Assembly (NCBI GenBank): GCA_948144175.1
Contig: CANXME010002281.1
Location: 103,501 to 167,500 of the forward strand
Origin: Closterium sp. NIES-65
Taxonomy: Eukaryota > Streptophyta > Zygnematophyceae > Desmidiales > Closteriaceae
DNA length: 64,000 nucleotides
Reading direction: 5' to 3'
Shown: positions 11,559-62,688 of the stretch, piece after piece
How the letters are laid out: the number at the start of each line of letters is the position of its first letter
Numbering within the stretch: the stretch's first letter is position 1
Notes under the pieces: generated by a model
Told to the model about the DNA's origin: nothing
Seen by the model: the letters and a program-made list of their open reading frames with translations, nothing else
The model's database searches: none
Program-made: the position numbers and the translations under genes

Positions 11559-14500
11559 TCAAGAGGAGAGCAAGTGAGGCAAGACAGGCACAAGACCCAA
11601 CTGCGTGCAACAACGCTGATGATCACAAGGCGCAAGTGCCTTGGTGAAGACATCAGCAGTGTTGGCCTCAGAGGCCACGTACGCAAGTCGCAACTGTCCA
11701 CGCTGCTGTAGCTCACGAGCAAGAAAGTAGCGGAGAGCAATGTGCTTCGTTCTGTGCTCCAGTCTCTGCTCTCGACACAAGGCCAGCATGGCCTTGTTGT
11801 CTACGTACAGGACTGGAGGAGAACGAGGCTGCTCTCCAAGGTCGGTCAACAGGTAGGTGAGCCAGCGTAACTCCTGTGCAGCCATAGCCCCGGCGTAGAT
11901 CTCAGCCTCACAACTGGAGCCGAGAACAGAAGACGAACGGGTAGCCCGCCACGAAACAGAGCCGGAACCAAGGCTGAAGGTGTAACCCTGTGACGACCGC
12001 TGCGTAGCCTGGTCGTCAGCCCAAGAAGCGTCCGCGTGCCCAGTGAGGACCACTGGACTGCGCCCTCCAAGCACTAGCCCCATGCCCGACGAACTGCACA
12101 AGTAGCGCAACACCCTCTTCGCTGCAGCCATGTGCTCTGGTCGGTGTCTCCCAGGAGCAACATAGCGTGCGAGAATGCTAAGAGGGTATGCAAGGTCAGG
12201 TCGTGTGCAGGTCATCAGGTACATGAGGCAGCCAACAAGCTCTGCATACGGGCCACTCGACTCTACGGACTCATCCGAAGGCAGAGCTGAGAGCGAGTGG
12301 CGAGTAGGCAGAGGAGTGGCCTGAGGCGAGGAGTACGTGAAGCCGAAGCGCTGAAGGACCTGCTGCACCATGTGTGACTGAGTCAGGGTAATGGTGCGGC
12401 GTGCTCTGTCCCGGGTGATCTGCAAGCCAAGATAGCTGCGCAGTTCACCCAGGTCAGTGCACGTGTGTCTCTTCTGCAGCTCGGACTTCACGTAGGCGAG
12501 TCCAGCAGTGTCAGCTGTGGCAAAGACCAAGTCGTCGACGTACACGAGGATGTAGAACGGCGGCAGAGAGGTGTCGGTGCGCAGAAACAGCGACGGGTCG
12601 GCAGTAGAAGGAGCAAACCCAAGTGCCGCGAGCGTAGTCCTCAGTGTGTCGTGCCACTCACGTGGCGCCTGGCGGAGACCGTAGACTGGACGCCGGAGAC
12701 TCCACTGGGTACCAGGAGGGAAAGACCCAGTGAAGCCAGGTGGGCGACGCAGCCAGATCTCCTCGTGCAGGCTGCCCTGCAAGAAAGCTGTGCTGAAGTC
12801 GAGAGAGTGCAGCTCGTAGTCACGGTGAGCAGCAACGTGCAGCAGGACCCGAAGAGTGGTCATCTTCGGGGTGGGGGAGAAGGTCTGAAAGTAGTCAACC
12901 CCCTGCCGCTGACTGAAGCCACGAGCCACGTAACGCGCCTTGAAGACAGGCGGAGAACCCGGCGGCCGCTTCACCCTGAAAATCCACATGCCACTGACGA
13001 TGTTCGCCCCAGGGGGGGGAACAGCGTCAACGTAGGTGCCTGTGGACTTCCAGGAAGCCATCTCTGCATCCATAGCTGCCTGCCACTGAGAGGAGTAGGG
13101 ACCCTCTATCGCCTCCGCGTAAGAGCGCGGAGTCGGGATGTCTGGTGCATCCGGGTCTCCCTCAGGGGCTAGCAGTACAGACGCGAGACGAGGTGAAGCG
13201 GCGGCTAGACACTGGAACTCCTCCTGCCTGTCCTCAAGGACGTCCGTGCCAAGGGCACACTCACCCCCGACGGACGGAGGACAGGCGGACTCAGACTCAG
13301 TGACAAGACGGGCAGCGTAGTCTAGACGACAGCGCGCAGCAAAGTCGACAAGCTCAGTGACAAGGGCAGACGCAGCAGACGACTCGAAGGAAGGGTCAGT
13401 GACAGCTGTAGCAAGGAGACGCGTGACAGTAGGACTGGCAGCACGAAGAGAGTCCGACTCCGGGTCGGCAAGAGCAGGAAGAGAGGAAGCAGGAGGAGAA
13501 GGCAAAGGGGCACGCAGAGGAGCAGTGGACGGACGTAGTGACATCCGGTGCATGCCAGGAACAGGAGGAGGACGCTGACGCGACCCGCGACCACTAGCGC
13601 GCTCAGTACGAACAGGCGACACAGGACGAGACGCAGGCTCACGACGCTCAGTAAGACCTCCAGTCGGACCAGTGTAGGGAGACGGAGCAGGCAAAGGGGA
13701 GGCAGGCTGTAGCTGTGGCTGTGACCGGACAGGCTGCGGACCCTCTAAGGGAGGAGGAGGAGGAGGCGGAAGACCAAGAACCTGCTGCAGGAGCGGAACG
13801 AAGTAAGGTCGGGGCCGCGCGGCGACACCAGAAACAGCAGGAACAGTACCAGCAGCCCCGGCAGGAGTACCCACTCCAGCAGCACCTCCAGCAGCACCAC
13901 CAGAAGCTCCAGAACCTCCAGCAGCAGCACCAGGAGCACTGTCAGTCGAACCGCCAACGGCAGGCTCAGCGCCAACACCCTCAGTAGCACCAGCTCCAGG
14001 AGAACTCTCAGACCCAGCAGCTCCAGCACCCACAGTACGAGCACCGGCGGGACGCGAGGCAGCAGTACCCTCTGCAGCCGAAGAACCACCAGCACCAGCA
14101 GCACACCTCCAGCGCCTAGCAAACCACTCACGCAGCTCCTGCGGGGAGAGTGGCTCCCGGCGAGACGAAGCACCCCCAGGCACAGCACCCCCAGGCTCAG
14201 CACCCCCAGGCACAGCACCCCCAGGCTCGGCACCTCCAGGCTCAGCACCCCCAGACGCAGCACCCCCAGGCTCAGCACCCCTAGGCACAGCACCCCAAGG
14301 CTCAGCACCCCCAGGCTCAGCACCCCCAGGCTCAGCACCCCCAGGCTCAGCACCCCCAGGCTCAGCACCCCCAGGCTCAGCACCCCCAGGCTCAGCACCC
14401 CCAGGCTCAGCACCCCCAGACTCCGCACCCCCAGGCTCAGCTCCCGCAGCAGCACCAGAGTCACCAGTGACCTCGACAGGCTCGACCGCGTCTACCTGGG

Positions 14501-17500
14501 ACACACCTGAAGGGGCAGGACCCTGAGGGGGGAGGGGGACTACCGGGGGGGGGCCTGGTACCAGGAAGAGCGGGGGTGGGGGGAGGGACGGAGTGCGGTA
14601 GGGGAAGAGGCGGTAGTAGGGTACCGACTCGTCGAACGTGACGTCCTGGGAGGACAGAACACGTCGAGAGGTGGGGTGGTAAAACTGCCACCCAGGGGCG
14701 TCGGGGGGGAACCCCAGGAAGACGCAGGGAGAAGCACGAGGGGACAGCTTGTCCGCAGACAGGTCGCGAACAAACGTCCGAGATCCCCAGACCCGGAACG
14801 CCGACGCATCGCCAACCTTCCCCGTCCACAGCAGGGCTGGGGAGGTCTCCGGTCGAGAGACCCTGGGGTGGAGGTTGATCTGGTGCGCAGCGTACCTGAC
14901 CGCAAACGGCCACAGAAAATGGGGAGCAGCCGCATGCATCATGGACGTACGAGCGACGTCCATGACCATGCCAATGCGGCGCTCAGCAATCCCATTCTGC
15001 TGTGGTGAGTCCGGAAGCGTGAAGGTCTGACGGATGCCTCGTGCACGACAGTAGGCACTCAGGAGGCCAGAGGAGAACTCTCCGCCTCTGTCCGAGTGCA
15101 GACGCAAAACAGGGAAGTCAGAGCCAAAGCTCCTCCGAAGCTGGAGACGAGCTGCGCGGATCCAGTCGATCAACACCGCAGTGACCTCACCCTTGCTGCG
15201 CAAGGGGAAGACTGTGGTGTAACGCGAGTAGTCGTCAACCACCAGCAGGAAGTAGCGCTCCTGACCCTGTCCACGGACGCGGGCTGGGCCCCACACGTCC
15301 ATGTGAAGCGTCTGCAACGGGGCCTCTGTCGGAGGAAACTGGGAGGAGTGAGGGGCAGCACGCTGGCGCCCCTCGACACAGGGGACACAGGTAGGGCCAG
15401 GGCCCGGAGGAAGGGGAGGGAGAGACCGGGGAAGACCAGACACAAGGACTCGCGAGGCCATGCCTCTGAGCCGAAGCAGAGAGGGGTGGCCAAGGCGGTG
15501 GTGCCAGAGGAGGGTCTCGTGAGACAGACGACGACACGAGCAAGGGGCAGACTCAGGACCAGACCTGGACGCTGCAGCAAACACCTGACCAGACGAAGGG
15601 ACCCTACCAGACTCAGCACCTGGAGGAGAAGCAGTGGTCAGTGTGTACAGGCTCGACCCTGGCCGACGTGTAAACGTAGCCAGGTGGCGACCTGTATCCG
15701 CCTCCGTGCAGTGGGTCACCCGCTGACGAGCAGGGGTGAACTGGTGGACACCCGCATCCTGGAGGTCAGCACCACTCACCAAGTTCGTCGAGAACGAGGG
15801 GAGGTAGAGACCAGTCAGGGTGCCAGAGGGGGCCGCCGGACACGGGAGGACAGTGGAGAAGCGAGACAGGACAGGCCCCCCAGAGGGGTCAGCCAGGGAC
15901 ACCGCAACCGGCCGACTCAGCGGCGTGAGAGTGGTGCGGTCCCTAAAGAAGGAGCGAGACGCTCCAGAGTCAAGGGTGAAGGTGTGAGAGGCCGAAGCCG
16001 ACACAGTACCTGAGAGGGCAGACTCACCAGCACCTGAGAGCACAGACGCACTGGCACCTAGAGCAGCAGCCTCACTAGTACCTGACGCGGCAGTACCAAT
16101 GCCCGGGTCGGGCGGGAAACACCGGTAACAGTCATCCTCATCACTACCAGTCACAGCATACATAGCAGAGAGAATAGCATCAAAATCAAGATCATAAATA
16201 GCTACACCAGCCCTAGACAGCTCTCCCCAGCGGGGGATCTCAGCGGCCTCCGGAAACTGCTGACGCCAGGCGTCGGTCAGGCGGCCAAAGCAGCGGCGGG
16301 CTGTGTGGGCGCCTCCACACCTCTCCCCTGCACGGTCATCTGTGCGAAGAACGTAGGGGCAGGGACCAAGCGCACCACCACGCTGACGCTGCAAGTACCA
16401 CTCACGGAGCTGCTGAGGGCCGGGGACGGTGCGAGAGCGCTGCTGCTGCTGTGGCTGCTGCTGCGGCTGCTGCTGCTGCTGCTGCTGGCGCTGACCACCC
16501 CCAGAGCTGCTCCGCTGGGACGAGCCACTCCGACCCCCGCCTCCACCGCCACCCCCGCCTCCACCGCCACCCCCGTCTCCACCGCCACCTCCCCCACCAG
16601 GACCGTCGCTCCCACCGCTCCCACCGCCTCCTCCGCTACCACCTCCGCCGCCACCTCCGCCTCCACAGCCGCCACCAGTACCTCCACTCCCGCCACCACC
16701 CCCACCGCCACCCCCACTCCCCCCGCCACCCCCACCGCCTCCTCCACCGCCCCCTCTAGCTCCACCCGCTCCCTTGCCCCCTTTGCTCTTGCCAGAGCGG
16801 CGTCTGCCGCTGGGGGCAGACGCCGCGCCGACCGACTCAAAACCAGTGAGGTCGGCCGCAGCGGCAGAGGCGACAGAGGGCAGCAGGGGGGAAGGACCAC
16901 ACCCCTCAAAGATGGGGGTGCGAGGGTCACCCCGAGAGGCCCCTACAGCGACAATACTCTTCTCAGCCGCTAGCAGGGACTCCTCAAGGAGGTCGACAGT
17001 GAGAGTGGTGGGACAGACAGAGAGAAACTGGTCCCTAACGACACGAAGGGACTCAGGGAGACGGGTGACGAGAAAGTAGAGGGTGATGTACATGGGAGGA
17101 GGGTTCGCAGCGCGGAACTCAGCAGGAAGGGCAGCGCGGTAGCGGGTGTCACTAGCACGGAGGTGGGTAACGAGGTCAGCGACAGTGGGAAAGGAAGCGA
17201 GGTCAGGGAAGAGAAACGGTAGCATGAGGCGGCTAAGGGTAGCGGAGGAAGGGGAGGAGTAGCGTGCAACTACAGCGTCGTACAAGGCCTGAGCGGACTT
17301 GTACTGACTAAAGTGGGCACGCTCAGAGGAAGGGAGGTGGCGACGCACAGCAAGACGTGCAGCAGCATCGCGGGTCGCCCACTTGGAGCGAACGGCAGAG
17401 TCAGCATCAGCAGGTGGGGCAGGAACAGCGCCAGAGACAAAGTCAAAAAGAGAGACCTCATCTATCGCATCACACAGTAAGTACAGCTGCAGGTCTTCAA

Positions 17501-17564
17501 TCCAGACGGCAAAGTCAATGGCCCTTCCCTCAGCGTCAAAAGTAAGAACATTGGGGGTGGCCAT
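11559..17564 (-). CDS. C2 copia polyprotein (Gag-PR-IN-RT-RNase H), 2001 aa
   Basis: This single ORF encodes a complete copia polyprotein. I chose the ATG at 17564 (MATPNVLTFDA) because C1 starts at the matching place; the frame is open seven codons further up. In order it has: Gag (UBN2-like, about residues 1-250); a Gly-rich basic stretch to about 355; a Gln-rich patch with QQLREWY; a Cys/His box of form C-x12-C-x3-H-x4-C (CPYV...CGGAHTARRC) in place of a normal CCHC knuckle; protease with LDSGASRSFF; an HHCC zinc motif and integrase with MDVWGP, HSDRGGEF and SPQQNGIAERR; an acidic AEPGG pentapeptide repeat; RT with YVDD; and RNase H with ADASWADD, EAEIYAG and DVFTKAL. It ends with TGA. About 2000 residues is long for copia, mostly because of the repeat linkers. 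No break is visible. Confidence 0.95.
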   Translation of the reverse strand: MATPNVLTFDAEGRAIDFAVWIEDLQLYLLCDAIDEVSLFDFVSGAVPAPPADADSAVRSKWATRDAAARLAVRRHLPSSERAHFSQYKSAQALYDAVVARYSSPSSATLSRLMLPFLFPDLASFPTVADLVTHLRASDTRYRAALPAEFRAANPPPMYITLYFLVTRLPESLRVVRDQFLSVCPTTLTVDLLEESLLAAEKSIVAVGASRGDPRTPIFEGCGPSPLLPSVASAAAADLTGFESVGAASAPSGRRRSGKSKGGKGAGGARGGGGGGGGGGGGSGGGGGGGGGSGGTGGGCGGGGGGGGGSGGGGGSGGSDGPGGGGGGGDGGGGGGGGGGGGGGRSGSSQRSSSGGGQRQQQQQQQPQQQPQQQQRSRTVPGPQQLREWYLQRQRGGALGPCPYVLRTDDRAGERCGGAHTARRCFGRLTDAWRQQFPEAAEIPRWGELSRAGVAIYDLDFDAILSAMYAVTGSDEDDCYRCFPPDPGIGTAASGTSEAAALGASASVLSGAGESALSGTVSASASHTFTLDSGASRSFFRDRTTLTPLSRPVAVSLADPSGGPVLSRFSTVLPCPAAPSGTLTGLYLPSFSTNLVSGADLQDAGVHQFTPARQRVTHCTEADTGRHLATFTRRPGSSLYTLTTASPPGAESGRVPSSGQVFAAASRSGPESAPCSCRRLSHETLLWHHRLGHPSLLRLRGMASRVLVSGLPRSLPPLPPGPGPTCVPCVEGRQRAAPHSSQFPPTEAPLQTLHMDVWGPARVRGQGQERYFLLVVDDYSRYTTVFPLRSKGEVTAVLIDWIRAARLQLRRSFGSDFPVLRLHSDRGGEFSSGLLSAYCRARGIRQTFTLPDSPQQNGIAERRIGMVMDVARTSMMHAAAPHFLWPFAVRYAAHQINLHPRVSRPETSPALLWTGKVGDASAFRVWGSRTFVRDLSADKLSPRASPCVFLGFPPDAPGWQFYHPTSRRVLSSQDVTFDESVPYYRLFPYRTPSLPPPPLFLVPGPPPVVPLPPQGPAPSGVSQVDAVEPVEVTGDSGAAAGAEPGGAESGGAEPGGAEPGGAEPGGAEPGGAEPGGAEPGGAEPGGAEPWGAVPRGAEPGGAASGGAEPGGAEPGGAVPGGAEPGGAVPGGASSRREPLSPQELREWFARRWRCAAGAGGSSAAEGTAASRPAGARTVGAGAAGSESSPGAGATEGVGAEPAVGGSTDSAPGAAAGGSGASGGAAGGAAGVGTPAGAAGTVPAVSGVAARPRPYFVPLLQQVLGLPPPPPPPLEGPQPVRSQPQLQPASPLPAPSPYTGPTGGLTERREPASRPVSPVRTERASGRGSRQRPPPVPGMHRMSLRPSTAPLRAPLPSPPASSLPALADPESDSLRAASPTVTRLLATAVTDPSFESSAASALVTELVDFAARCRLDYAARLVTESESACPPSVGGECALGTDVLEDRQEEFQCLAAASPRLASVLLAPEGDPDAPDIPTPRSYAEAIEGPYSSQWQAAMDAEMASWKSTGTYVDAVPPPGANIVSGMWIFRVKRPPGSPPVFKARYVARGFSQRQGVDYFQTFSPTPKMTTLRVLLHVAAHRDYELHSLDFSTAFLQGSLHEEIWLRRPPGFTGSFPPGTQWSLRRPVYGLRQAPREWHDTLRTTLAALGFAPSTADPSLFLRTDTSLPPFYILVYVDDLVFATADTAGLAYVKSELQKRHTCTDLGELRSYLGLQITRDRARRTITLTQSHMVQQVLQRFGFTYSSPQATPLPTRHSLSALPSDESVESSGPYAELVGCLMYLMTCTRPDLAYPLSILARYVAPGRHRPEHMAAAKRVLRYLCSSSGMGLVLGGRSPVVLTGHADASWADDQATQRSSQGYTFSLGSGSVSWRATRSSSVLGSSCEAEIYAGAMAAQELRWLTYLLTDLGEQPRSPPVLYVDNKAMLALCREQRLEHRTKHIALRYFLARELQQRGQLRLAYVASEANTADVFTKALAPCDHQRCCTQLGLVPVLPHLLSS
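14166..14455 (-). repeat. 15-bp in-frame minisatellite (AEPGG repeats) in C2
   Basis: About 18-19 units of GGTGCTGAGCCTGGG-type sequence (minus strand) encode Ala-Glu-Pro-Gly-Gly pentapeptides between integrase and RT. Variants are AESGG, AVPGG and ASGG. C0 (about 361-560) and C3 (about 45170-45360) carry the same repeat with different unit numbers, so copy number is unstable in the family. The protein linker is probably flexible and tolerant of length change. Confidence 0.88.
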
Positions 17565-17585
17565 GGCAGCAGCTGGAAGTCTCAC

Positions 17586-18454
17586 CGGGCTGGGAGAGTC
17601 GGGTAGGTCAGCAGCAGAAGAACACAGCTCAGGAACAGCAGCACGGCGGCTCGGGCGGCTCGGGCGGCTCGGGCGGCTCGGGCGGTTCGGGCGGCTCGGG
17701 CGGCGGCTCGGTCGCAGCTCAGCGGCGGCTCGGGCGGCGGCGGCTCGGCGGCGGCTCGGCTGCTGCTGGGCGGCTGGGCGGCGGCTCGGGCGGCTCCGGC
17801 TCTGCGGCGCAGGCGGCGGCGGCTCGGCGGCGGCCCGGGCGGCGGCTCAGGCGGCGGCGGCTCGGCGGCGGCTCGGCTGCTGCTGGGCGGCTCGGCTGAT
17901 GCTGGGCGGCTCGGCGGGGCCGCGGAGCAGAGGGCGGCGGTGCCGCGTAGGAGAGGGCGGCGGGGCCGCGTAGCAGAGGGCGGCGGGGCCGCGTAGCAGA
18001 GGGCGGCGGAGCCGCGTAGCAGAGGGCGGCGGAGCCGCGATCGAGGGGCGGCGGGGCCGCGTAGCAGAGGGCGGCAGGGCCGCGTAGCAGAAGGCGGCGG
18101 GGCCGCGTAGCTGAGGGCGGCAGGGCCGCGACGTAGGGCGGCGGGCGGGCCGTCGAAGTAGGGCGGCGGGCGGGCCGGGACGTAGGGCGGCGGGGCCGCG
18201 ACGTAGGGCGGCGGGCGGGCCGTCGAAGTAGGGCGGCGGGCGGGCCGGGACGTAGGGCGGCGGGGCCGCGACGTAGGGCGGCGGGCAGGCCGCGACTTAG
18301 GGCGGCGAGGCCGCGCGATAGGGCGGCGGGGCCGCAAGGTAGGGCGGCTCGACAGGCCGCTAGGGAGGGCGACACGACGGGTCGCTAAACAAAAGGACGC
18401 GCGCCTCGGGGCGCGCTTTGGTGGGCCCAAGAAACAGTCCCTAGTAGGGGACCT
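17586..18454 (-). repeat. GC-rich leader arrays of C2
   Basis: The leader between primer site and gag is nearly all tandem repeat. Repeats of GGCGGCTCGG lie at about 17643-17900. Units containing GCGGGGCCGCGTAGCAGAGG lie at about 17940-18120. Units of GACGTAGGGCGGCGGGCGGG type lie at about 18125-18300. Unit lengths are largely multiples of three, and one frame stays open for 325 codons from the LTR to 17582, encoding RPTSRPRRP-like repeats. A role in packaging, translation control or as a leader peptide is possible, but nothing here proves it. Confidence 0.8.
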
Positions 18455-21651: not shown

Positions 21652-21854
21652 CTGGGGGGAAAGGAATGGGGATGAGGGGGGTGGAGAGAGAGAGAGCGAG
21701 AGAGGGGGAAGGGAAAGGGAGGAAGTGGGGGGTGGGGAAGGGAAAGGGAGGAAGTGGGGGGTGGGGAAGGGAAAGTTAGGGGAGGAGCAGAAGTCGGAGA
21801 GCAGAGGGGGAGGTGAGAGAGAAGCAGCAGAGCATGCATTGGGCAGGGGAGCAA

Positions 21855-22655
21855 CTGGTGCTGGCACTCGTCGTAAAGGGGCTGGTCCATCTCATGACAC
21901 ATGTTGCGCAAGTTGATGGTCAGCCCGTTCACCGCCTGGGGGGAGGAAAAGGGTGGGGGAGCGAGAACAGAGGGAAGAAGAAGAGTAGAAGTGGAGAGAA
22001 AGGAAGGGGAGAAGGAGCGAGCGGCAGAACACAAGGAATTGACAGGGGTTGATCCATCAACCAGAAACATCTTGCACACGTTGATGGTCAGCCTGTTCAC
22101 CGCCTGGGGGAAGGGCAGGGAGAGGGCAGTGGGGAGGGATAGGGGAGCAGAGGGGGAGAGGAGGGAGAGGAGCACAGCACAGAATGCATTGGCCAAGGCC
22201 TGGACCATCTTGAGAAACATCCTGCACACATTGATGGTCAGGCTGTTCACCATCTGGGGGGGGGAGGGAGAGCCGTGAGGAAAGAGGGGAGGGAGGGAGG
22301 AGAAGAGAACGGGAAGTAGAGAGGGAGACGAGGGAGAGGAGCTTAGCACAGTAAGCATTGGGCAAGGCCCGGTCCATCTTGAGAAACATCCTGCACACGT
22401 TGATGGTCAGGCCGCTCACCATCTGGGGGGGGGGAGGGGAGGGGAGAGAACAGCCGTGAGGGAGGGCAGGAGAGGAGGAAGATCAGGGGAGGAAAAGAGG
22501 GACAGCAAAATGGGAGAGGAGGGAAGAGAAAGAGAGAGGCAAAAGCACAGTGGGACGGAGGAGGGAGAGAAGAGGGCAAGGGAGGGAGGCAGAGCAGCAC
22601 TGCAAGCAGTGGGCCTCCGGGACTCATCACAGGGAGCCTGGTCCATCTCTCATGA
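21855..22655 (-). pseudogene. Five decayed copies of the exon 3 5' edge in intron 2
   Basis: Copies lie at about 21855-21935, 22041-22103, 22190-22253, 22350-22422 and 22610-22655. The first four keep the acceptor (pyrimidines then CAG) and encode, in the same phase, AVNGLTINLRNMCHEMDQ, AVNRLTINVCKMFL, MVNSLTINVCRMFLKM and MVSGLTINVCRMFLKM. The fifth keeps only the EMDQ-ECQ part (GAGATGGACCAG). Pyrimidine-rich spacers of about 90-220 bp separate them. One frame (22358-21645) runs open through three copies. They look like serial duplications of the acceptor region; none has the full exon or its stop. Confidence 0.85.
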
Positions 22656-22941
22656 AGGTGGGGAAGGAGTAGGGATCCCAAACCACAGGGGATGAGAGAA
22701 TATGCTTACAAGGAAAGAAGGATCGGTGACATAAACCCTCATAGCAAGGGCAGAGGTCAGCAGACAGTAGTTGTCAGCATCACGCTTTAACTCCCTAAAC
22801 CCTGGAAAATCAACTGGCAAAGCAACTGATATTTCACCTTCGCCCAACCAAAACAAATGTAGACGCTCGATTAAGCCGCCTTGAGTCGAAAGAATCGGTT
22901 AGGTCAAGAATCAACTCGACTGCTCATTTCTAGAGCAGCTG

Positions 22942-23238
22942 CTGGTTCCAGTGGTTTCAGACTGTGCTACCACCACCGTGGCCTCTCCTGTACCTGCAGC
23001 GGCAAAAGTCACTGTGCCTCGGTTCACTTGCACCATCGACTGTCTCAGGTCAGAGGCATGCCAGTTTAGACGCTGTATCACCGTACCTGGTGCCAGTGGC
23101 TTCCGTAAGTGCTACAGCCATGGCCAACCCTGTACCTGCAGCTGTCACTATACCTGGTTCCAGTGGCTTCAATTCGTTTCACAGCCACAGCCTTGCCACA
23201 CACAAGCATGTGCCACCCTACCTGGTCCCAGCAGCTTC
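22942..23238 (-). repeat. Four partial copies of the exon 2 3' edge (donor side)
   Basis: On the plus strand the motif ACCTGGTTCCAGTGGCTTC, the complement of exon 2's SHWNQ end plus donor, sits at 23320-23338. Variants lie at 22942-22958, 23085-23103, 23152-23170 and 23220-23238. Spacing is about 70-140 bp. Several keep the GT of the donor (TACCTGG on the plus strand). Sequence between them (CTACAGCCAT, TACCTGCAGC) is also partly repeated. Confidence 0.75.
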
Positions 23239-23321
23239 GGTTCGTGCTACAACCATAGGCAGTCCGTGCTACAGTCACATCCTACCACATACCTGCTAGT
23301 GCCACCCTACCGGCACCATAC

Positions 23322-23450
23322 CTGGTTCCAGTGGCTTCTGGCGTTGCGCTCGAGAGCAGCAAAGATGAGGGGCAGGATGGTGGTGCGGTTCTGAGCCACG
23401 AGCGTCACGATGTAGTCGTTGTTCCACAGGAACAGCGTCCTCTCGGCCAC
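23322..23450 (-). CDS. PP2A B' exon 2 (43 codons)
   Basis: It is bounded by acceptor TGCAG and donor GTATGG, both phase 0. It encodes [15 protein letters not shown]...SHWNQ, which continues the B56 domain directly after SSHFQ of exon 1, as in known B56 proteins. Decayed copies of its 5' edge lie at 23596-23656 and 23890-23945, and of its 3' edge at 22942-23238. Only this copy has both edges and an open frame. Confidence 0.93.
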
Positions 23451-23595
23451 CTGCATGGGGTAGGGGAGGGGGAGGGATGGCGGGGAGGGGAGAGGGGGGA
23501 AAGTGGGGGACGGGGGGCGGGTGGTGGGGGAGGAGGGTACATGAGGAGGGCATCACATGCTGATATTTTGACATATGGGCCACAGGCGTATTGGT

Positions 23596-23945
23596 TCAGT
23601 TCTGCACCACGCGCGTCATGATGTAGTCGTTGTTCGACAAGAACAGTGTCCGCCACCTGGGGGGGGGGGGGGGGGAAGGGGAGGGGGGTGTGAGCGGGTT
23701 TGAGGGGGGCGTGTGTGAGGGGGGGGGGGGGGGGGTGAGGGGGGCGCGTGTGAGGGAGGGGGGGGGGTTGAGGGGGGCGTGTGTGAGGGGGGGGGGTTGA
23801 GGGGGGCGTGTGTGACGGGAGTTTGTGTGTGCATAAATACAGTGCATGTATGAAATGCGTGGTGTGATGTATGGGCCACATATGTGTTGGTCCTGAGCCA
23901 CCAGCGTCACCAAGTTGTAGTTCCACAGGAAATTGAACACAGGTT
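23596..23945 (-). pseudogene. Two decayed copies of the exon 2 5' edge
   Basis: The copy at 23596-23656 keeps the acceptor (CCCCCAG then GTGGC) and the coding trace SNNDYIMTRVVQN, but has lost bases near its start and ends in a stop. The copy at 23890-23945 encodes FLWNYNLVTLVAQD without a clean acceptor. Both lie in intron 1 upstream of the real exon 2. Confidence 0.82.
23657..23830. repeat. G-rich minisatellite in PP2A intron 1
   Basis: This is an array of units about 25-35 bp long built on GGGGCGTGTGTGAGG and runs of 8-14 G. On the gene strand it is C-rich and sits just upstream of a decayed exon 2 acceptor, so it may have begun as that copy's pyrimidine tract. Confidence 0.75.
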
Positions 23946-24739
23946 CCAATAATTGTATTAAGCCATGCTATGTGGAGTATAGCTCGAAGCGGGGCACAGT
24001 CGACCAGATGTAATAGTCACCAGAATGACTGCGTATTCGTTTTTCCCTCAGGAATAGAGGGCTCGCTGTCCAGGCTGTTAGGAAAAGTATGCATGGCGAT
24101 GAAATATGTTTGAGACAGTACACGGTATTTACATACATGGTCGGGTATGTATGGAACAATATAAGGCATGAATACGAGCACAATGTAAGTATGGGGCAAT
24201 ATTTTGTATAAACGCGCGTATGGGACAGTGAGTGATGGTATCATACGTCGATACAATGTGTGTATGGGACAATTCATAGTAGGACACAAGGTCATGAATA
24301 TGACCCATGGCAAACCAACACAGGAAGGAGGGTGACGGTGAGGAGTTATGCGGTGGAAATGTAATCACTTATCACGCTGAAACAGTGTAGAGACCGGGGA
24401 ACTGGCCACAGGCAGAAGGGAGACACGGGGGACGCGGCCGCAAGTGGGAAAACGAAGAGCGCGTGCATGACACGTCAGCAAGACCCCACAGTATCAACGA
24501 AACCCTAAATAACGCCAAAACACCAGGATAAACAAAGACCCGCACCGACTTGAGGCGCCACACCGTGCTGAAGAACGGCGAATTCTGAGTCGACTCAGAG
24601 GTCGTCCTTTGAGATGTAAGCAGTGCTGACCGATTTCAACATTGCTCGCACTTGAATCCAGAGATCAGCATGTGAGGACTTTAGGAACATGGTGGCCTGA
24701 GGGAGCGTACCTGAGAGTGGCGAACCGCGGTACACGAGT

Positions 24740-24814
24740 GCGAGGAGCTGAGGCAGCGCGCGATTTGCTGGAACAGCTGCGTTACGACCATCTGAAACTC
24801 CGGCGCCTGCGTAA
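24740..24814 (-). pseudogene. Decayed copy of the exon 1 3' edge
   Basis: About 75 bp repeats the end of exon 1 ([25 protein letters not shown]) about 220 bp downstream of it on the gene strand. Identity to the real exon end is around 90 percent by eye. It is followed by SCTAVRHSQ and a GTACGC that could act as a donor. Confidence 0.82.
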
Positions 24815-24957
24815 TAATGCGTGACACCCCCTCACACCTCCTCGCAGCTCCGCGTACCCCCTCGCAACCCCTAACACCCTCTCTCACACCCCCTTCCACC
24901 ACTGTATCACATTTCCCGAGCACCGCAGCACACCCCAACACACCCGTCCCACCGTAC

Positions 24958-26181
24958 CTGGAAGTGAGAGGAGCTGAGGCAGCGTGCGATCTGCTGGAAC
25001 AGCGGAGTCATGACCATCTGAAACTCCGGCGCCTGCGTAAGCTCCAGAATCTCCTCCAACTCCCCAAGGAACAGCACCTCCTTCTGGCTGTTAGTTAAGG
25101 GCCAGAACTTAAGCAACCCGCGCAGCACCAAATCCGCGAGCTTCGGGTCTTTTTCCACAAACTGAGTGATGCAGTACGACAGCTGCTGGTGGTACATCGA
25201 CACGCACTTAGGCTTGTGCAGCGGAACCAGCGCGCGGACCAGGAACAACTTATGCTCCTCCTTAAGCGGCAGCGCGAACCCGTTGATAATACTCCCTAGG
25301 ATTTCCAGCAGCTCAGCGATGCCGTTATGCCGCTCCGACTCGTAGATAAACCGGTAGAATATGTTGTTAATCGCCTTGCGGATGAACGGCCGGTGCACCA
25401 TAAATTTCCCGTAAATCCGGTGCAGAATAGTCTTCAAATAGTCCCGCTCGCGAGGGTCCTCCGAGTCGAACAGGTTCAGCAGCTTTAAGATGAACTTCTG
25501 GTCCACGTAGCGCTTCGCGACCTTCGCGTCGGTCTCGTTAGAGACAACATACCTAAGCAGGAACTCGTAGACTATTTGCAGGTGCGGCCACGCGGCTTCC
25601 ATAGTCGGCTCCTCCTCCTCCGGGTCGAACGATTCCGACCCGGACATCTCGTGCGCGGACGGCGGTAACGGCCGGAAGAGATTAATCTCCAGCATGCGCG
25701 TGATGTCTTCGAATACCGCTTCGTTGAATTTCCCGGTTCCGGAATTAACGTAGTCGACTAGTTCCAGGAGCGTTTGCCGCTTAATCTCCTTCTCCTTCAC
25801 GTTTTTCATGGGGTCGTTGAAATCGAAGAGGTAAGTGCAGAGATGCAGCTTCCGAATGAATAAAGCCTGCTTTTCCTGCGGACCCACGTCTCTAAACAGC
25901 GGCAGCGGCTCCGCGAAAGGCGACGCGTTCGCCTGCGCGATCACTTCGTTGGGGTCGCGACGAACGGGAGCCGTTGGATTCGCGACGCCAGGAGGCGGAT
26001 GCGGGCCTCCCGCCTTTCCGGCGTTCCCTCCCCCTGATGCAAGCTTCCCCGAGCCCGACCGAGCAATGCCACCCCCCGCTGCTGGCGCCGCTGCTGCATT
26101 GCCTGCATCGTGCGACGCTGCCTCTGACTTACCCTGCTTTTTCCGACCCCCTGCAAACGTCTTCTTAACCGACTGAAGCAT
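24958..26181 (-). CDS. PP2A B' (B56) regulatory subunit, exon 1 (408 codons)
   Basis: B56 subunits bind the PP2A A/C core and select phosphoprotein substrates in cytoplasm and nucleus. The start is the ATG at 26179-26181 ([18 protein letters not shown]). Residues 1-75 are Gly/Ala/Pro-rich and poorly conserved. From about residue 78 the B56 HEAT-like repeat domain is clear: [77 protein letters not shown] and [12 protein letters not shown]. The exon ends SSSHFQ followed by GTACGG, a phase-0 donor. Joined to exons 2 (23322-23450) and 3 (21385-21651) it gives 539 residues, a normal plant B' length. Nearly all the conserved domain lies in this one exon. Chromovirus G1 lies about 700 bp upstream. 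Confidence 0.95.
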
Positions 26182-43407: not shown

Positions 43408-43775
43408 TGTGAGAGTACGACGGCTTATGCGAGCAATGCTTGCTTGCCTTTACTTTATTATGCTATTTCTAGCATAGGATAATTATATGCATGCATGAAT
43501 TGCTTGATTCCCTAGACTAGGTGCTTTCCCATATTTCATTATAGTTATAGCACCGAGCTAGGTTGCGTGCACCGAATTCTGGCTTTTCGGTTGCCACCGA
43601 ATTGCCTTCTACCGAATTCGGGAAGGATCTATTCGGGACGCTTCGCGACCCGCGGAACCTTCGCGTAACACCTGGTTACGGGGCCTTGTGTCGAGCCTAT
43701 ATATAGCCTCGTGTTGTACCCAGGTGATCATTCAATTCAAACTCTCTTTTCTGAGCTCGATCCTAGATCCTCACA
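43408..43775 (+). repeat. 3' LTR of G2 and purine tract
   Basis: It has the same length as the 5' LTR. The six differences are mostly C/T changes in the first 160 bases. The tract GAGGGGGGGACG precedes it (43396-43407), starting within the pol stop codon region. Confidence 0.95.
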
Positions 43776-46700
43776 AACGTGCAGTAGCAAGGACGTCCGT
43801 GCCAAGAGCCCCGACGGACGGAGGACAGACACACTCAGACTCAGCAACAAGAGTAGCGGCGTAGTCCAGACGACAAGCAACAGCAAAGTCAACAAGCTCA
43901 GTGACTAAGGCAGACACAGCAGCAGACTCAAACGACAGGTTAGTGACAACTGTGGCTAGCAGACGTGTGACAGTAGGGCTAGCAGCACGAACGCGGTCAG
44001 ACTCAGGCTCAGGAACGGTAGGCAGAGAAGACACAGGAGGGGACGGCAGGGGAACACGCTGCGGAGGAGAGGAAGGACGACGAACTACGAGGTGGGTGCC
44101 GGGGACAACCGGCTGACGCTCACGAGGAACACGACGACCAAAACGACCAGAACGGACAGGCGAGACAGGACACGGCGCAGGCTCACGTTGCTCAATAAGA
44201 CCCCCTGACTGCTCAGTGTAAGGAAAAGGAGCAGGCAGTGGTGAGCCAGGCTGTAACGGAAGACCAGTAGACGAAGGGAGACTAAGAACCTGGCAAAGTA
44301 CAGAGTTAGACGGTGGCTGAGACAACGGAGATGGCGGAGCAAAGAACAGGCACGGCTGTGCAGTGCCACCAGCACCAGCAGCTCCAGCACCCCCAGCAGC
44401 TCCAGCACCTCCACCAGCACGAGACCCCTCAGCGCCAGCTCCTCCAAGACCAACTCCTCCTGTAGCAACACCCTCAAAACCAGCACCTCTCGTCCCAGGG
44501 TTCCCAGCCTCAGTGTCACCAGTAGCAGCACCCCCAGACCCAGGGTCTCCAGCAGTAGCACCGTTAGGCTCAGCACCTCCAGCCCCAGCAGCTCCAGTAC
44601 CTCCAGTATGAGCACCTCCCGGACCAGCACCACTCCCAGCTCCAGTGACGGCAGCAGAAGTACCTCCAATGGCAGAGCGCCGAGCTCTAGAAGCGCGATC
44701 CTGCTGGCGACCGTACCAGTCGTGCAGCTGCTGAGAGGTGAGAGGTACACGCGGACGAAGGCGGCTGCTCCAAGGAGACCGCGCAATAGCAGACTCAGAA
44801 CCCTCATCGCCAGCACTCGCAGCAACTCCAGGACCTCCAGCGCCAGTACCCTCAGCAGCTCCAGAACCTCTAGCACCAGCACGCGTAGCAGCTCCAGAAC
44901 CTCTAGCTCCAGCACCCTCAGCAGCTCCAGAACCTCCAGCAGAAACAACTCCAGTAGCAGAGTCACCGCCTCCAGCGCCTCTCGCAGCAGGGCCCCTAGC
45001 TCCAGCAGCGCGACCCTGACGGCCAACGTACCACTCACGCAGCTGCTGTGGGGAGAGAGGGAGTCGACGACAAGAGTGCAGCTGCGAGGTACCAGCGGAG
45101 CGACTACGGAGACGGCTGCCCCACGGAGACTGCTCACCAGACGCCTCAGCGCTCCAAGGTATAGCACCCCCAGATTCAGTACCCCCATGCTCAGCACCCC
45201 CAGACTCCTCACGCCCAGACTCAGCACCCCAAGTCTCCGCACCCCCAAGCTCCGCACCTCTAGGCTCCGCAATCCCAGGCTCAGCACCCCTAGGCTCAGC
45301 ACCCCCAGGCTCCGCACCCCAAGGCTCAACACCCCCAGTAGCAGCACCCCGAGCAGGACCACCCTCAGCAGGACCTGAGTCACCAAAGACCTCAACTGGC
45401 GCAGGCAAGAGAGGAGGGTCTACCTGAGACACACCTGAAGGAGCAGGACCGGGAGTGGGGAGGGGGTCTACCTGGGGAGAACCTAGAGCGAGGAAGAGCG
45501 GCGGGGGGGGGAGAGGGGCAGTGCGGTAGGGGAAGAGACGGTAAAAGGGAACCGACTCGTCGAACGTGACGTCCTGAGAGGGGAAGACACAGCGCGAGGT
45601 GGGATGGTAAAACTGCCAACAAGGCGCGTCAGGGACAAAGCCAAGGAAGACACAGGGAACAGCGCAGGCGGAGAGCTTGTCCGCGGTGGTATCGCGGACA
45701 AAGGCACGAGCACCCCAGACCCGGAAACGCGACGCATCGCCAACCTTCCCCGTCCACAGCAGTGTGGGGGAGGTCTCCGGCAAGGAGAGACGGGGCCAGA
45801 GGTTGAGCTGATGCGCGGCGTACCGGACCGCAAACGGCCACAGAAAATGGGGGGCAGCCGCATGGATCATGGAGGTACGAGCGACCTCCATGACTAAGCC
45901 AATGCGGCACTCAGCAACCCCATTCTGCTACGGAGAGGCCGGAAGCTTGAACGACTGGGTGATGCCGTGCTCCTCAGAGAAGGCTGCCAAGAGGTCGGAG
46001 GAAAACTCACCACCTCTGACAGAGTGCAGACGCAGGACGGAAAACTCCGTCCCGAACCGATCGCGGAGCTGGAGACGAGTAGCGCGGATCCAAGGGATCA
46101 AAACATCAGGGACCTCACCCTTGGTGTGCAAGGGGAAAACCGTGGTGTTACGCGTGTAGTCGTCGACGAACAGCAAGAAGTACCGCTCGTGGCCCTGTCC
46201 ACGGACGCGGGATGGGCCCCACACGTCCAGGTGGAGAGCCTGCAGGGGAGCCTCTGCGGGAGGGAACGAGGAGGAGTGAGGAGCAGCGCGCTGCCGCCCC
46301 TCGACACAAGGAAGACAGGGAGGAGCAGGCGAGGGTGGGAGGGGAGGGAGAACCCTGGGGAGACCAGAGAGAAGGACACGGTGGTGCATGCTGCGAATAC
46401 GCTACACCGAGGGGTGACCAAGGCGGTGGTGCCAATGGAGGGCCTGGTGCGACAAGGCGCGACACGAGCAGGGGGCCGACAACTGACCTGACGCAGACGC
46501 AGCTACCTAAGGGGACTCAGTGGTCGGTGTGTACATTCCCGACCCCGGCTGCCGAGTGAAGGTAGCCAAGTGACGACCCATCTGAGCACACGTGCAGTGT
46601 GTCACACGCTCGTAGGCAGGGGTGAACTGGTGAACACCCGCGTCCTGGAGCGCAGAACCTACCAGAAAGTTTGTAGAGAACGAGGGGAGGTAATGACCCG

Positions 46701-47136
46701 ACAGTGTGCCGGACGGGACAGCAGGACAAGGGAGGACAGTGGAGGAGGTCGCACGGACAGGACCCCTTGAGGGGTCTACCAGGGAGACTGGAAACGGCCG
46801 ACTGAGCGGCGTGAGGGTGTTGCTGTCGCGAAAGAAGGAGCGAGAAGCACGAGAGTCAAGTGTGAAGGTGTACAAGGCCTGAGCATGCGCAGTACCAGAG
46901 AGAGCAGACTCACCAGCACCTGGAGCAGCAACCTCACCAATACCTAGAGCAGGAGACACACTAGCCCCTAGATCAGCAGCCTCACCAACACCTAGAGCAG
47001 CAAGCTCTATACCTGGGTCAGGCGGTACGCACAGGTAACAGGCACGGTCAGCACTAGTAGGTAATGCATACATGGCAGTGAGAATAGCATCATAGTCAAG
47101 AGAAAATATATCTACCCTCTGCCCAAGCAGCTCCAC
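43776..47136 (-). pseudogene. C3 Gag end, protease, integrase, linker
   Basis: Starting near 47136, a Gag end (LDYDAILTAMYALP) leads into a protease whose active site reads LDSRASRSFF, so the catalytic DSG has become DSR. A stop lies at 46507. The pre-integrase motif and integrase follow with HLDVWGP, but the second catalytic Asp is lost (HSVRGGEF for HSDRGGEF) and TAG replaces Gln in SPQQNG (near 45926). The 706-codon stretch 45891-43771 covers the integrase end, AEPGG repeats and a Gly/Ala-rich linker in which QQLREWY-type motifs recur. It then jumps from ALGTDVL directly to LLHV, a deletion of about 130 codons including the start of RT, made before G2 entered. Confidence 0.9.
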
Positions 47137-48792
47137 CCATTCGGGGAGCTCAGCCTCGTCGCCAAACTCGGTACGTCAGGCGTCGCTCAGACGAGCGAAG
47201 CACCGGGTCTGTGTGTGACTGAGCGTCCCGCAAGTCTTACGAGTCTGAGCACCAGTGCGAATGACGTACGGGTAGCGAACGGTACTCAGATACCCTCTAC
47301 TCTGAGCGTACCACTCACGAAGCTGCTGGGGCGTGCGAGACTCGCGCGGACGTCGCTGGAGCTGCATCTGGCCACCGCTTGTAGCAGCAGTAGTAGTAGT
47401 AGCAGCAGTAGCAGCACTAACAGCAGTAGCAGCAGTAGCAGCAGTAGCAGCGCGGCCACCCCTACAACACCAACTAGCGTACCACTCATTAAGCTGTTGG
47501 GGCGTGAATGACTCACGCAGACGACGCTTGAGCTGCATGTGGCCACTGTCAGTAGCAGCAGTAGCAGTAGCAGTAGCAGTAGCAATAGTAGTAGTAGCAA
47601 CACCAGCGCGTGCAGGGCAGGCGCGACAGGCGGCCAGGCCGGCAGGCACGCAGGCAGGCAGGAGGCAGGCAGGCAGGCAGGCGGCATCGCACGAACAAGG
47701 TAGGTGCTCACCAGTGATAGGCAGGGTCGGCACTCCGCGGGGCCGCAACAGCGGCCGCAGAGTAGGGCCGCGTCGGCGATAGGGCAGGTCCGCGAGAGTT
47801 GTTGCAGGGCGGGGCCGTGACAGCTGCAGGGCGGGGCGGCAACAGTGGCAGAAGGCTCCGCGGCAGCTGCTGCAGGGCGGGGCCGCGACCGCGGCAGGAT
47901 GCTCTGCGGCAGCTGCTGCAGGGTGGGGCCGCGACTACGGTAGAAGGCTCCGCGACAGCTGCTGCAGGGCAGGGCCGCGACTGTACTAAGGCGCTCCATG
48001 GCAGCTGCTGTAGGAGCGACGGTGGCAGTCAGGCAGGGGCGGCGTCCAGAGGCAGCCGCGACGCGCGAGGCTGCAGCGCGCTGCGCGAGCTGCGGGCGCG
48101 GTGCGCGGGGCTGCAGCGCGACGCGCTTAACCCTAAACGCGGCGCGCGGGGCTGCAGCGCGACGCGCGGGCAGCGAACGCGACGCGTGGGGCTGCAGCTC
48201 GACGCGCAGGCAGCGGGCGCGACGCGCGGGCAGCGGACGCAACGCGCGGGGCTGCAGTGCGACGCGCGGGCTGCGGACGCGACGCGCAGGGCTGCAGCGC
48301 GACGCGCGGGCAGCGGGCGCGTCGCGTGGGGCAGCGACCTGGCCTAACGGGCCTGAAGGGGCGGCTCGCTGGCCTGACGGGCCTGCAGGGGTGGCTAGCG
48401 GGCCTGACGGGCCTGCAGGGGCGGCTAGCAGGCCTGACGGGCCTGCAGGGGCGGCTAGCGGGCCTGACGGGCCTGCAGGGGCGGCTAGCAAGCCTGACGG
48501 GCCTGCAGTGGCGGCGCTCTGGCCTGACGGGCCTGCGGGGGCGGCTCGCGGGCCTGACGGGCCTGCAGGGACGGCTAGCGGGCCTGACGGGCTTGCAGGG
48601 GCGGCTCGTGGGTCGAATAGGCCTGCAGGGACGGCGCGTTGGTCTAGGGCAGCAGTAGGCAGCTCGAGGGCTGCAGGACGGCGCGCGCAGCGCAGCACGT
48701 CACAAGGCGAGGCAGGCAGGCGCACGTGGGGTAGCGTGGTAACCGCAACGATAGGTGAGCACGAAAAAAAAAAACGGTCCTACGGACATAGT
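47137..48792 (-). repeat. C3 leader arrays and Gag remnant
   Basis: About 48000-48330 repeats GCGCGGGGCTGCAGCGCGAC-type units, and about 48340-48640 repeats a 27-30 bp unit GCCTGACGGGCCTGCAGGGG. A 479-codon frame is open on the minus strand (48725-47286), mainly repeat-encoded. Near 47176-47748 a Gag fragment carries two copies of an RRLRESFTPQQLNEWY module and the Cys/His box CPYVIRT...CGTLSHTQTRC. The Gag N-terminal domain seen in C1 and C2 is absent. ACT/AGC trinucleotide runs (about 47390-47450, 47545-47600) and CAGG runs (47640-47690) are also present. Confidence 0.8.
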
Positions 48793-53034: not shown

Positions 53035-53481
53035 TTAGCCCGGGCCGACCTTGGGAATGTCGTGGTGCTCACTAAGATTAGCCAGGTACTTGTTGAAATC
53101 CTCCACGCGCTGCCTGTGCGACTTACTCGCGCCTCTAGCAGCCCGTTCCGCCTCGAGCTTCTCCAACTGCTCGTGATACCGCCGCTCCGCGGGCGTGCGG
53201 AGATCCTCCGCCTCCTCCTGCGCCTGCTGCTCCCCCTCTTCCTCCCCCCCCGCCTCCCCTACCGCCAACGCGCCTGATTCGTGCAATCCCGCCGCGCCGC
53301 CGCGCGCCTCTTCCTCCTTAAGCGCCGCTTCGGCGTCTCGAAGCGCTTGCAGCTGCAGCGAGTCGAGGTTAACGGCTTTCGCAGCCTTTTTTTTCTTCTT
53401 CTTGACGCCGCCTATGGACGGCAGCGCGCGGTCGCCGCCTTTCAGTTTCAGTTTACCGCCGATGACGTTGTTGAACGACAT
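53035..53481 (-). CDS. FAM32A-like nuclear/spliceosomal protein (148 aa)
   Basis: A single-exon gene from ATG at 53481 to TAA at 53035. The N-terminus has the family's basic start (GGKLKLKGG then VKKKKKKAAK), a likely nuclear signal. A long acidic coiled-coil-prone middle (residues about 42-95, Ala/Glu-rich) is followed by RTPAERRYHEQLEKLEAER. The diagnostic C-terminus is SKSHRQRVEDFNKYLANL then SEHHDIPKVGPG, close to human FAM32A (KQRVEDFN, HYDIPKV). In human spliceosomes FAM32A acts at the exon-ligation stage. The middle region is longer than in animals. The Harbinger element starts 193 bp upstream of the ATG, so it sits in or near the promoter. Confidence 0.92.
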   Translation of the reverse strand: MSFNNVIGGKLKLKGGDRALPSIGGVKKKKKKAAKAVNLDSLQLQALRDAEAALKEEEARGGAAGLHESGALAVGEAGGEEEGEQQAQEEAEDLRTPAERRYHEQLEKLEAERAARGASKSHRQRVEDFNKYLANLSEHHDIPKVGPG

Positions 53482-54096
53482 CGCGACGTCAGGATACTCG
53501 TCACCGTCTGGTGGCCGTCAGATTGGACGTCGCCGTCTGTGGCAGTCAGGCTGGTCGCAGTCTGGCGGCACGCGAACCGACGACGGGGTTGCTGCTGCTG
53601 GCACTCGAGTTTCGAGACAAACGAGTGCTGAGACCTGTGCTTTAAGATTACAACGGATCACGATTGGTGGATAAGGGCGTGTGAGGTCTTTGAAATTTGT
53701 AAAAGTTTATGTTTTTAGGGCGAATTTTAGTTTCGAACTTACAACGAAAGAAGTTCGAATTTCCTTCTATCGAAGTTCGAACATCGGGCTTACCACACTG
53801 TAAAAAATCACACACACATACAAGGTCGAACCCCGACATTCGAACTTGTAAAAACGAGCCGAGCCGCACATCAACATCATAGGTTACCCGGTTCGAGAGT
53901 CTTGACAGTGCGCCACGTCAACATTTTGCGCCTCGGTTTACAAAGACCTAGAGCTCCAACTCACCTTCCGCGCCGAGTGTGTAACCAGGGTACAAATAGC
54001 CCTCGTGGCAACACCTTGTATACTCGTCATTCGCCCAACATGACAACCCTACAGCTGGTCCGCTTTCTCCGCATCGTATGACAAGGGTACTTGCAG

Positions 54097-55290
54097 ATGG
54101 TGATGCTTCCCGTCCTCAACGCTGTTGGCACGGCACTCCCCACGCTCGTCTCGGCCTTCACTCTCAGGCAGACCCGGGTGTTCGTGCTTGGCGATCGCCT
54201 TGACGCACGTGTGCGTTGGTTTCGACTGATAACATCCCTGCCCGAGTACACTTTCTATGAGTATTTGCGGGTTGACAAACGCATTTTCGTGTACTTAGTG
54301 CGCCAGTATCAGCCCAGCCGTTTCGCTACACTTAAGCATCCTGTGCATAACTTTTTATTCGTCGCCATGGGACTTAGCAGGCTTGGGCATGGTCTCACAT
54401 TTCGCGAAATTGGGCTTCACTTCGGCTACTCTTTCTCCCACGCCCACAAGCTGTTTGCGAGGTTCGTATTTTTCGTCAACGAAGTCCTCCTGCCCAAGTG
54501 GGTCGTGTGGCCAGACATGGACATGCTGCAGTTGTTCGAGACAGAGTTTCGCCTTCAAGCCGGAATACCTGGGGTGGTAGGCGCCATGGACGGGACCTAC
54601 ATACACTGCCGTGGCATGGGACCACATTGCGAAGACTTCAGAAATAGGAAAGGTTTCTTTTCTATTATTTGCCAACTAATCTGCGACAGCATGGGTCTCA
54701 TCTGGGACTTTTTTGTAGGATATCCCGGAAGCGTCAACGACGCTCGGGTTTTCATGAACAGCCCTGCAAGAACTAAAATTGAAGGAGGAGGGATATTGGA
54801 CTACACGCTAGTAGCGGACGCTGCCTATGGATTGAGGCCCTACATCTACACACCCTATCGTGCCCTTCCCGGCATCGCACTTCCCGACCATCAGCGAGTC
54901 TGGAACCTCCAGCAGTCCCGCACTCGAATGATTGTGGAGCAGGTGAACGGGAGGCTGAAGACCAAATGGCGCATCCTGGACGGGCGCCTCGAGTGCGACG
55001 TCATCCGCGCCCCGCAGGTCGTATCCGCCTGCATCGTGCTTCACAACATCGACCTCATCCTCGGTTTCCGTCACCGCCTGAACGAACCTCGTGAGCGCAA
55101 CACTTGGTGGCTGGAAGGACCCGTTGCGGAGGCCCCGCATTTCTCGTCGCGCGATGCGGGCTTTACTCCGACTCGTCGTCGATCTCGCCTGGCGGCGTAC
55201 TTCTACGCTTCCTGGAGGCTCGGGCATCCTGAGCTCTCTCAACCATCTCTTGGGTACGTTCTAAAAACTCATCAAATTGGTCCCGCATAG
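54097..55290 (+). CDS. Harbinger (HARBI1-type) DDE transposase
   Basis: About 397 residues, uninterrupted, belonging to the DDE_Tnp_4 group that cuts and pastes PIF/Harbinger elements in the nucleus. I take the first ATG in frame (54097); the upstream ATG at 54040 runs into a stop after 13 codons. The N-terminal helical part has FYEYLRVDKRIFVYLV and LSRLGHGLTFREIGLHFGYS, a helix-turn-helix-like region. The catalytic triad is visible: Asp in VVGAMDGTYIHC, Asp in GYPGSVNDARVF, and Glu in MIVEQVNGRLK. VADAAYGLRPYI lies between. The family's KGFFSIICQ and LHNI motifs are present. The last 128 bases overlap the antisense ORF at 55163-55381. Nothing looks broken. Confidence 0.94.
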   Translation: MVMLPVLNAVGTALPTLVSAFTLRQTRVFVLGDRLDARVRWFRLITSLPEYTFYEYLRVDKRIFVYLVRQYQPSRFATLKHPVHNFLFVAMGLSRLGHGLTFREIGLHFGYSFSHAHKLFARFVFFVNEVLLPKWVVWPDMDMLQLFETEFRLQAGIPGVVGAMDGTYIHCRGMGPHCEDFRNRKGFFSIICQLICDSMGLIWDFFVGYPGSVNDARVFMNSPARTKIEGGGILDYTLVADAAYGLRPYIYTPYRALPGIALPDHQRVWNLQQSRTRMIVEQVNGRLKTKWRILDGRLECDVIRAPQVVSACIVLHNIDLILGFRHRLNEPRERNTWWLEGPVAEAPHFSSRDAGFTPTRRRSRLAAYFYASWRLGHPELSQPSLGYVLKTHQIGPA

Positions 55291-61425: not shown

Positions 61426-61509
61426 TCATGCCCCCATTCTCTCCTCCTTAGCTTCTGCCATCATCGCCTCTAGAGCATCCACATCTGCTGGAACTGCCGC
61501 TGTCAGATT
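61426..61509 (-). CDS. Aminopeptidase P (M24B), last exon
   Basis: The acceptor CTTGCAG is followed by AATCTGACAGCGGC, encoding NLTAAVPADVDALEAMMAEA then KEERMGA and TGA at 61426-61428. E. coli PepP ends its catalytic domain with the same ENLTA pattern. Preceded by exon 61979-62039, which ends GYE in phase 0. The Penelope-like element lies about 10 bp past the stop codon. Confidence 0.88.
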   Translation of the reverse strand, partial: NLTAAVPADVDALEAMMAEAKEERMGA

Positions 61510-61589
61510 CTGCAAGACGTGGAGGGAATGGCGTGACACACATCAGGGGGGAATGAATTTATGTAGGCGTAGTGCCGTTGATGCCACAC

Positions 61590-62475: not shown

Positions 62476-62531
62476 AGTTAGAAGCAGGATTACAAGCAGG
62501 GGTTTGGAATGATGGGATGGGAGTGACTCAC

Positions 62532-62587: not shown

Positions 62588-62688
62588 CTGGGATTGGGGA
62601 AGCACGCACGCATGATCACGAAAGAGAAGTGCTAATGTTCGACAAATGTAGGGCCCGACAGGTTTCGAATGTGAGAGGAAGAGAGCAA

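Follow-up and report, generated by a model that had tools for sequence, protein, structure and literature searches.

Partial copies of exon edges lie in both introns of a Closterium PP2A regulatory subunit gene, probably left by recurrent duplication at its splice junctions

How does a gene come to carry spare pieces of its own exon edges inside the very introns that those edges border? The question is raised by a gene for a PP2A B' (B56) regulatory subunit in Closterium sp. NIES-65, a zygnematophycean streptophyte alga. We analysed a stretch of 64,000 nucleotides (contig CANXME010002281.1, positions 103,501 to 167,500), hereafter the window, and count positions from its first letter. The gene lies on the minus strand and encodes 539 residues in three exons. 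The B56 domain PF01603 extends over the protein, as precomputed for the matches listed, and its top three protein matches, 93-99% identical, are all Closterium gene models, from strains NIES-65 (P0001), Yama58-4 (P0002) and NIES-64 (P0003).

We compared 45-nt plus-strand tiles of the three exons with both introns, using 60 dinucleotide shuffles for each. Strong matches came from exon 1 nt 1111-1224 and exon 2 nt 1-75, both in intron 1 only, and from exon 2 nt 85-129 and exon 3 nt 1-105, both in intron 2 only. Against either intron, no tile was flagged at the start or in the body of exon 1, in exon 2 nt 46-120, or in exon 3 nt 76-195 and 211-267; the exon 2 tile at nt 46-90 fell just below flagging (score 28, shuffle maximum 26). 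A weak exception is provided by the exon 3 tiles at nt 166-240, Gly-rich coding sequence that matches intron 1 with scores of 25-27 against 21. On the minus strand, blastn found no strong match (best E 0.004, with a wrong query interval for exon 3). Clear copies of exon sequence derive only from the four spliced edges and sit only in the intron that touches them, adjoining their source on the same strand as junction-straddling tandem duplication would place them. A preliminary description of this DNA had claimed that each splice boundary has its own edge copied into the adjoining intron, and tiles and alignments confirm this at four of four boundaries (Table 1).

Table 1. Exons and introns of the PP2A B' gene and the exon-edge copies found in its introns (positions in the window; percentages and fractions are identities).
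Feature	Positions	Strand	Remarks
Exon 1	24958..26181	-	1224 nt; deposited models P0001 and P0003 both start exactly here
Exon 1 donor-edge copy (exon 1 nt 1142-1219)	24737..24814	-	91% over 78 nt; donor degraded in register
Intron 1	23451..24957	-	1507 bp; donor GTACGG, acceptor ATGCAG
Exon 2 acceptor far copy (exon nt 19-64)	23889..23931	-	blastn 83%; no AG in register
Exon 2 acceptor near copy	23592..23656	-	blastn 85% over 60 nt; preceded by C-tract and AG
Exon 2	23322..23450	-	129 nt
Intron 2	21652..23321	-	1670 bp; donor GTATGG, acceptor CCCCAG
Exon 2 donor copy 1	23222..23238	-	14/17 nt; then GTAGGG
Exon 2 donor copy 2	23154..23170	-	17/17 nt; then GTATAG
Exon 2 donor copy 3	23087..23103	-	16/17 nt; then GTACGG
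Exon 2 donor copy 4	22942..22958	-	16/17 nt; no GT, CAGCTG next
Exon 3 copy remnant	22617..22651	-	repeat family D12 and alignment; no AG in register
Exon 3 acceptor copy	22355..22422	-	CCCCAG acceptor
Exon 3 acceptor copy	22186..22253	-	CCCCAG acceptor; in 169-bp tandem unit
Exon 3 acceptor copy	22064..22103	-	CCCCAG acceptor
Exon 3 acceptor copy, nearest	21850..21935	-	CCCCAG acceptor; 89% over 95 nt
Exon 3, including stop codon	21385..21651	-	

The counts in the preliminary description stand when the real edge is included, with the exon 1 donor edge occurring twice, the exon 2 acceptor edge three times and the exon 2 donor edge five times. The intact signals ascribed to these edges fare less well. 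At exon 1, no intact donor is left in the copy: its blastn match ends 5 nt before the exon end and the donor CAG is lost in register. An AG is found at two of the three exon 2 acceptor edges, and a GT at four of the five exon 2 donor edges, among which the expected SHWNQ is kept by a single copy (ending at 23154), the other three reading SCWDQ, SHWHQ and NHWNQ. At the exon 3 acceptor, the copies at 22253 and 22422 look like copies of a copy, since they are closer to each other (83% identity) than to the real exon 3 edge (52% each) and together make up a tandem repeat with a 169-bp unit (2.0 copies, 84% matches).

We then compared the intron flanks of copy pairs with 300 dinucleotide (composition-matched) shuffles. 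At exon 3, the intron part is shared beyond all 300 shuffles in one of ten pairs (22422/22253), for which a Fisher test of exon-part against intron-part divergence gives p=0.22. At the exon 2 donor, the same holds for two of six pairs (23322/23222 and 23154/23087), and a third pair was equalled by 14 of the 300 shuffles. At the exon 2 acceptor, the signal is weak: the first 60 nt after the two copies share an 11-nt core beyond the shuffles (0/300), which sits inside a 27-nt repeat at 78%, and the whole stretch was equalled by 11 of 300. Past the edge of the exon 1 copy, the 300 shuffles reveal no intron homology (score 14, shuffle mean 14.7). The rule proposed in the preliminary description, that an edge plus its splice site is pushed into the intron, thus keeps its pattern at four boundaries and loses part of its "pushed" sense, as intron sequence is shared too in some pairs at three of them.

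These edge copies are probably explained by recurrent short, local duplication at or across the splice junctions, combined with selection for intact exons. Repeated duplications, mostly tandem and at spacings of about 67 to 291 bp, would have had their ends on either side of a junction. Doubling "exon end + GT + intron start", or "intron end + AG + exon start", would be harmless only with the spare copy in the intron; selection would retain only such copies, duplications within an exon would mostly be lost, and those wholly within an intron would go unrecognised as exon copies. The apparent edge rule would then be what selection leaves, because a duplication can spare the protein only where the extra piece of exon ends up in the intron. 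A first copy could seed further duplication, giving copies of copies and a longer intron, after which the copies would decay neutrally, some of them retaining usable splice sites. The mutational step may be slippage or repair, perhaps at C-rich tracts. The locus itself displays local, same-strand copies of edges only at all four boundaries, some shared intron sequence at three, copies of copies at exon 3 and no coding constraint; from these we infer the selective filter, the mutational step and the neutrality of the copies.

How many duplications this would take can be gauged from a simulation with one intron, units of 60-300 bp and tolerated duplications only. Junction-straddling events made up 76% of them with 300-bp introns, 54% with 500-bp introns and 22% with 1500-bp introns; mean introns in four Closterium strains are 485-554 bp long, according to the published strain data (PMC10407611). 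Edge copies at four junctions therefore need a fair number of duplications and no aimed mechanism.

Several observations weigh against this explanation. The exon 1 copy, 91% identical in its exon part but with a flank without homology, is not a plain tandem block. Either the duplication was local but not tandem, or it was tandem and the intron part has since been lost or replaced. Nine of the ten exon 3 pairs, including those beside the real acceptor, did not exceed all 300 shuffles, the pyrimidine-rich composition making exon 3 partly uninformative, and four of the six exon 2 donor pairs also failed to do so. Among the exon 2 donor edges, four of ten pairs (real-c3, real-c4, c2-c3 and c2-c4) show better conservation of the 17-nt edge than of the 50 nt after it (p<0.05). 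Plain decay does not predict this, and it may reflect ascertainment, the copies having been recognised by their edges. The seven differences of the exon 1 copy, distributed 1/1/5 on codon positions, hint at constraint; the number is small, and synonymous change in the real exon could produce the same. Lastly, the PP2A introns are richer in local duplications than most stretches of the window, but not uniquely so. Local duplications cover 24% of intron 1 and 68% of intron 2; outside the gene, cover is 0-4% in eight of 12 stretches, 7% in 1-20.7 kb, 11% in 20.7-21.4 kb, 34% in 60.8-64 kb, where a satellite lies, and 40% in 44-48.8 kb, which holds open reading frames (ORFs) with short arrays.

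Do the copies persist because they are used? According to one rival explanation, they are retained because they serve as decoys or alternative splice sites that compete with the real ones, giving isoforms or regulating splicing. We consider this unlikely, on the following balance. The 11 copies that were counted (the remnant was left out) are not independent and diverge by 0-29% from the real edges. Their differences from the real exon are spread evenly over codon positions 1/2/3 (28/20/29; third-position test p=0.47), one copy contains a stop and another contains gaps, all of which argues against a retained function and gives no support to maintained coding as a functional alternative exon. 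Splice dinucleotides are intact in eight of the 11 copies, or nine if the displaced GT in the exon 1 copy is included, where about 8.5 would be expected under neutrality (our own estimate, the sum of (1-d)^2 from the copy divergences); their survival is close to what neutral decay would give. Retention of CCCCAG in all four full exon 3 copies points the other way, as do the better conserved exon 2 donor edges and the codon-position pattern of the exon 1 copy.

The deposited gene models bear on the same rival. Read in blocks, the window accounts for every one of the 627 residues in the NIES-65 model P0001 and for 632 of the 634 in the NIES-64 model P0003, and both models splice into copies. Blocks of P0001 begin at or in copies: six residues at 23653-23636, at the start of the near copy of the exon 2 acceptor edge, probably belong to an 18-nt exon at 23656-23639, judging from the residue mapping, and further blocks are at 22422 and 22103-22062. 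The copy-derived blocks of P0003 are 22637-22557, one from 22422, and 22091-22062; the exact exon ends are deduced for both models. Both models contain the identical 56 residues from the 22422 copy region. The annotation combined Augustus, run with RNA, protein and repeat hints, with PASA transcript models, according to its published description (PMC10407611). Because RNA-based hints and PASA models were used, the copy-derived exons may have RNA support and the copies may be used; the models are predictions. Against use, the two strains' models pick different pieces of the same DNA, as prediction noise would, and the Yama58-4 model P0002 is the clean 539-residue form.

A second rival, to which we assign the same low probability as to the decoy role, supposes a process aimed at junctions, such as repair of breaks at R-loops or C-rich tracts, or templated insertion, that writes exon edges into the intron. 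It would account for the exon 1 copy and the many other pairs with no recognisable intron homology, for the involvement of all four boundaries, and for the edge-like pieces at the same boundaries in the paralogue models P0012, P0029 and P0032 (see below). It sits less well with the copies of copies and with the intron sequence held in common within some pairs at the three remaining boundaries. Moreover, duplications away from edges exist, and the need for an intact protein alone makes edge copies expected. A 29-bp array lies wholly inside intron 2 (21705-21775), and local duplications are not confined to exon edges, because a noncoding cluster of local direct duplications, 77-97% identical and with no recognised gene, occupies 61458-63145. 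An assembly artefact or a misread gene model, which the abundance of homopolymer and low-complexity sequence in the introns might suggest, is very improbable, as the copies are too diverged from the real edges to be simply duplicated reads and the shared 56 residues recur in models of two strains assembled from PacBio reads (NIES-65 and NIES-64; PMC10407611).

We screened PP2A proteins for internal repeats by diagonal score; the material consists of gene models, with some of the 105 controls derived from transcripts. Seven of the 15 proteins named Closterium passed, five of them with a duplicate of at least 60% identity (P0001, P0003, P0009, P0012 and P0029). In P0032 the duplicate, at 48% identity, corresponds to the exon 2 acceptor edge; the repeat of P0008 is low-complexity sequence. 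Among the 105 PP2A proteins not named Closterium, four passed, at 24-43% identity; this control favours recurrence in Closterium, because transcript data, from which several of the 105 come, cannot show exonised introns. P0001 and P0003 are the gene studied here and not independent cases. The 17-residue duplicate of P0012 has VSL, as its own paralogue group does, where the window's gene has VTL, suggesting that the same boundary was hit by an independent event. The P0029 and P0032 models contain pieces that, judged by eye, resemble the edges of exon 1, 2 or 3, and in P0009 the C-terminal tail is duplicated, away from a splice edge. The diagonal screen supersedes an earlier one based on high-scoring segment pairs (three of 15 PP2A proteins in Closterium, none of the 105 others, two of 120 kinases), which had missed cases such as P0012.

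The kinase set, in which 119 of 120 proteins among the matches listed are named Closterium, contains 39 proteins with an internal repeat score of at least 45. Leucine-rich repeats, low-complexity N-termini and other non-kinase parts were set aside. Within the kinase region, duplicates are found in P0173, P0218, P0234 and P0237 (84-98% identity) and in P0217, P0240 and P0197 (53-56%). These partial duplicates appear to resemble those of the PP2A proteins and are only a lead, from a Closterium-dominated set. A far broader claim would be that Closterium introns grow by ongoing genome-wide edge copying, at a rate well above that of other plants and with a share of the copies spliced, so that the genus would serve as a natural test bed for the origin of alternative exons and introns; we regard this as improbable. 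The gene model P0034 (Closterium sp. Naga37s-1) fuses a PP2A B' domain to a kinase (PF01603 with PF00069/PF07714), and P0017, by eye, runs on into kinase-like sequence.

Duplication of this type is already known. A review covers tandem genomic duplication as one way in which introns are gained (PMC3443670). The potato RNA-dependent RNA polymerase gene provides the closest parallel: there, a junction-crossing tandem duplication produced a new intron, and, much as we propose for the Closterium gene, the boundary-crossing unit carries the polypyrimidine tract, the 3' splice site and a piece of exon; a second tandem duplication, of 83 bp, lies within an intron of that gene (PMC4974935). In potato, however, a new intron was detected, whereas in Closterium the spare edges lie within existing introns, at all four boundaries, with one to four copies and a remnant. 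Rogers-type duplication of AGGT exon segments likewise supplies extra splice sites through short tandem duplications, but the duplicated piece is exonic and the new intron arises in a former exon, unlike in Closterium (PMC3443670). Some fission yeast genes have an intron that spans several tandem duplicates of a 24-bp AGGT exon segment, and they share with Closterium the multiple copies bearing splice signals; their units are exonic, whereas the Closterium units lie at pre-existing junctions (PMC4974935). Splicing decoys tied to intron retention are intronic sites that could compete with the real ones; in Closterium, a decoy role is one of the rivals weighed above. Among the papers listed, from mainly open literature and judged by titles and abstract openings, we recognised no other description of spare exon edges at every junction of one gene. 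The Closterium case is notable for its copy density and for the signs of recurrence in one genus.

New introns and alternative exons have been proposed to arise by junction-crossing tandem duplication, for which well-supported recent cases are few, according to the potato study (PMC4974935). A gene with decaying spare edges at four junctions, and with similar signs in its paralogues, would let one ask how often spare splice sites arise, how long they persist and how frequently splicing uses them. The case also carries a warning, as gene predictors may make false exons from such copies.

Among 20 ORFs of the window scanned with Pfam, none provided a second multi-exon gene as a DNA-level control, and only two passed the curated cut-offs: an ORF at 53038-53517 (-) matching FAM32A (E 3.9e-14), the sole other recognised cellular gene, and a 402-residue ORF at 54082-55287 (+) matching DDE_Tnp_4 and Plant_tran, a DNA transposase. 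No RNA family reached its gathering score in the window. Long ORFs at 11562-17846 and 43774-48779 (-) contain 15-bp arrays (AGCACCCCCAGGCTC and similar) and look by eye like retrotransposon polyproteins. A 12-bp satellite with 34 copies and 91% matches occupies 63176-63586.

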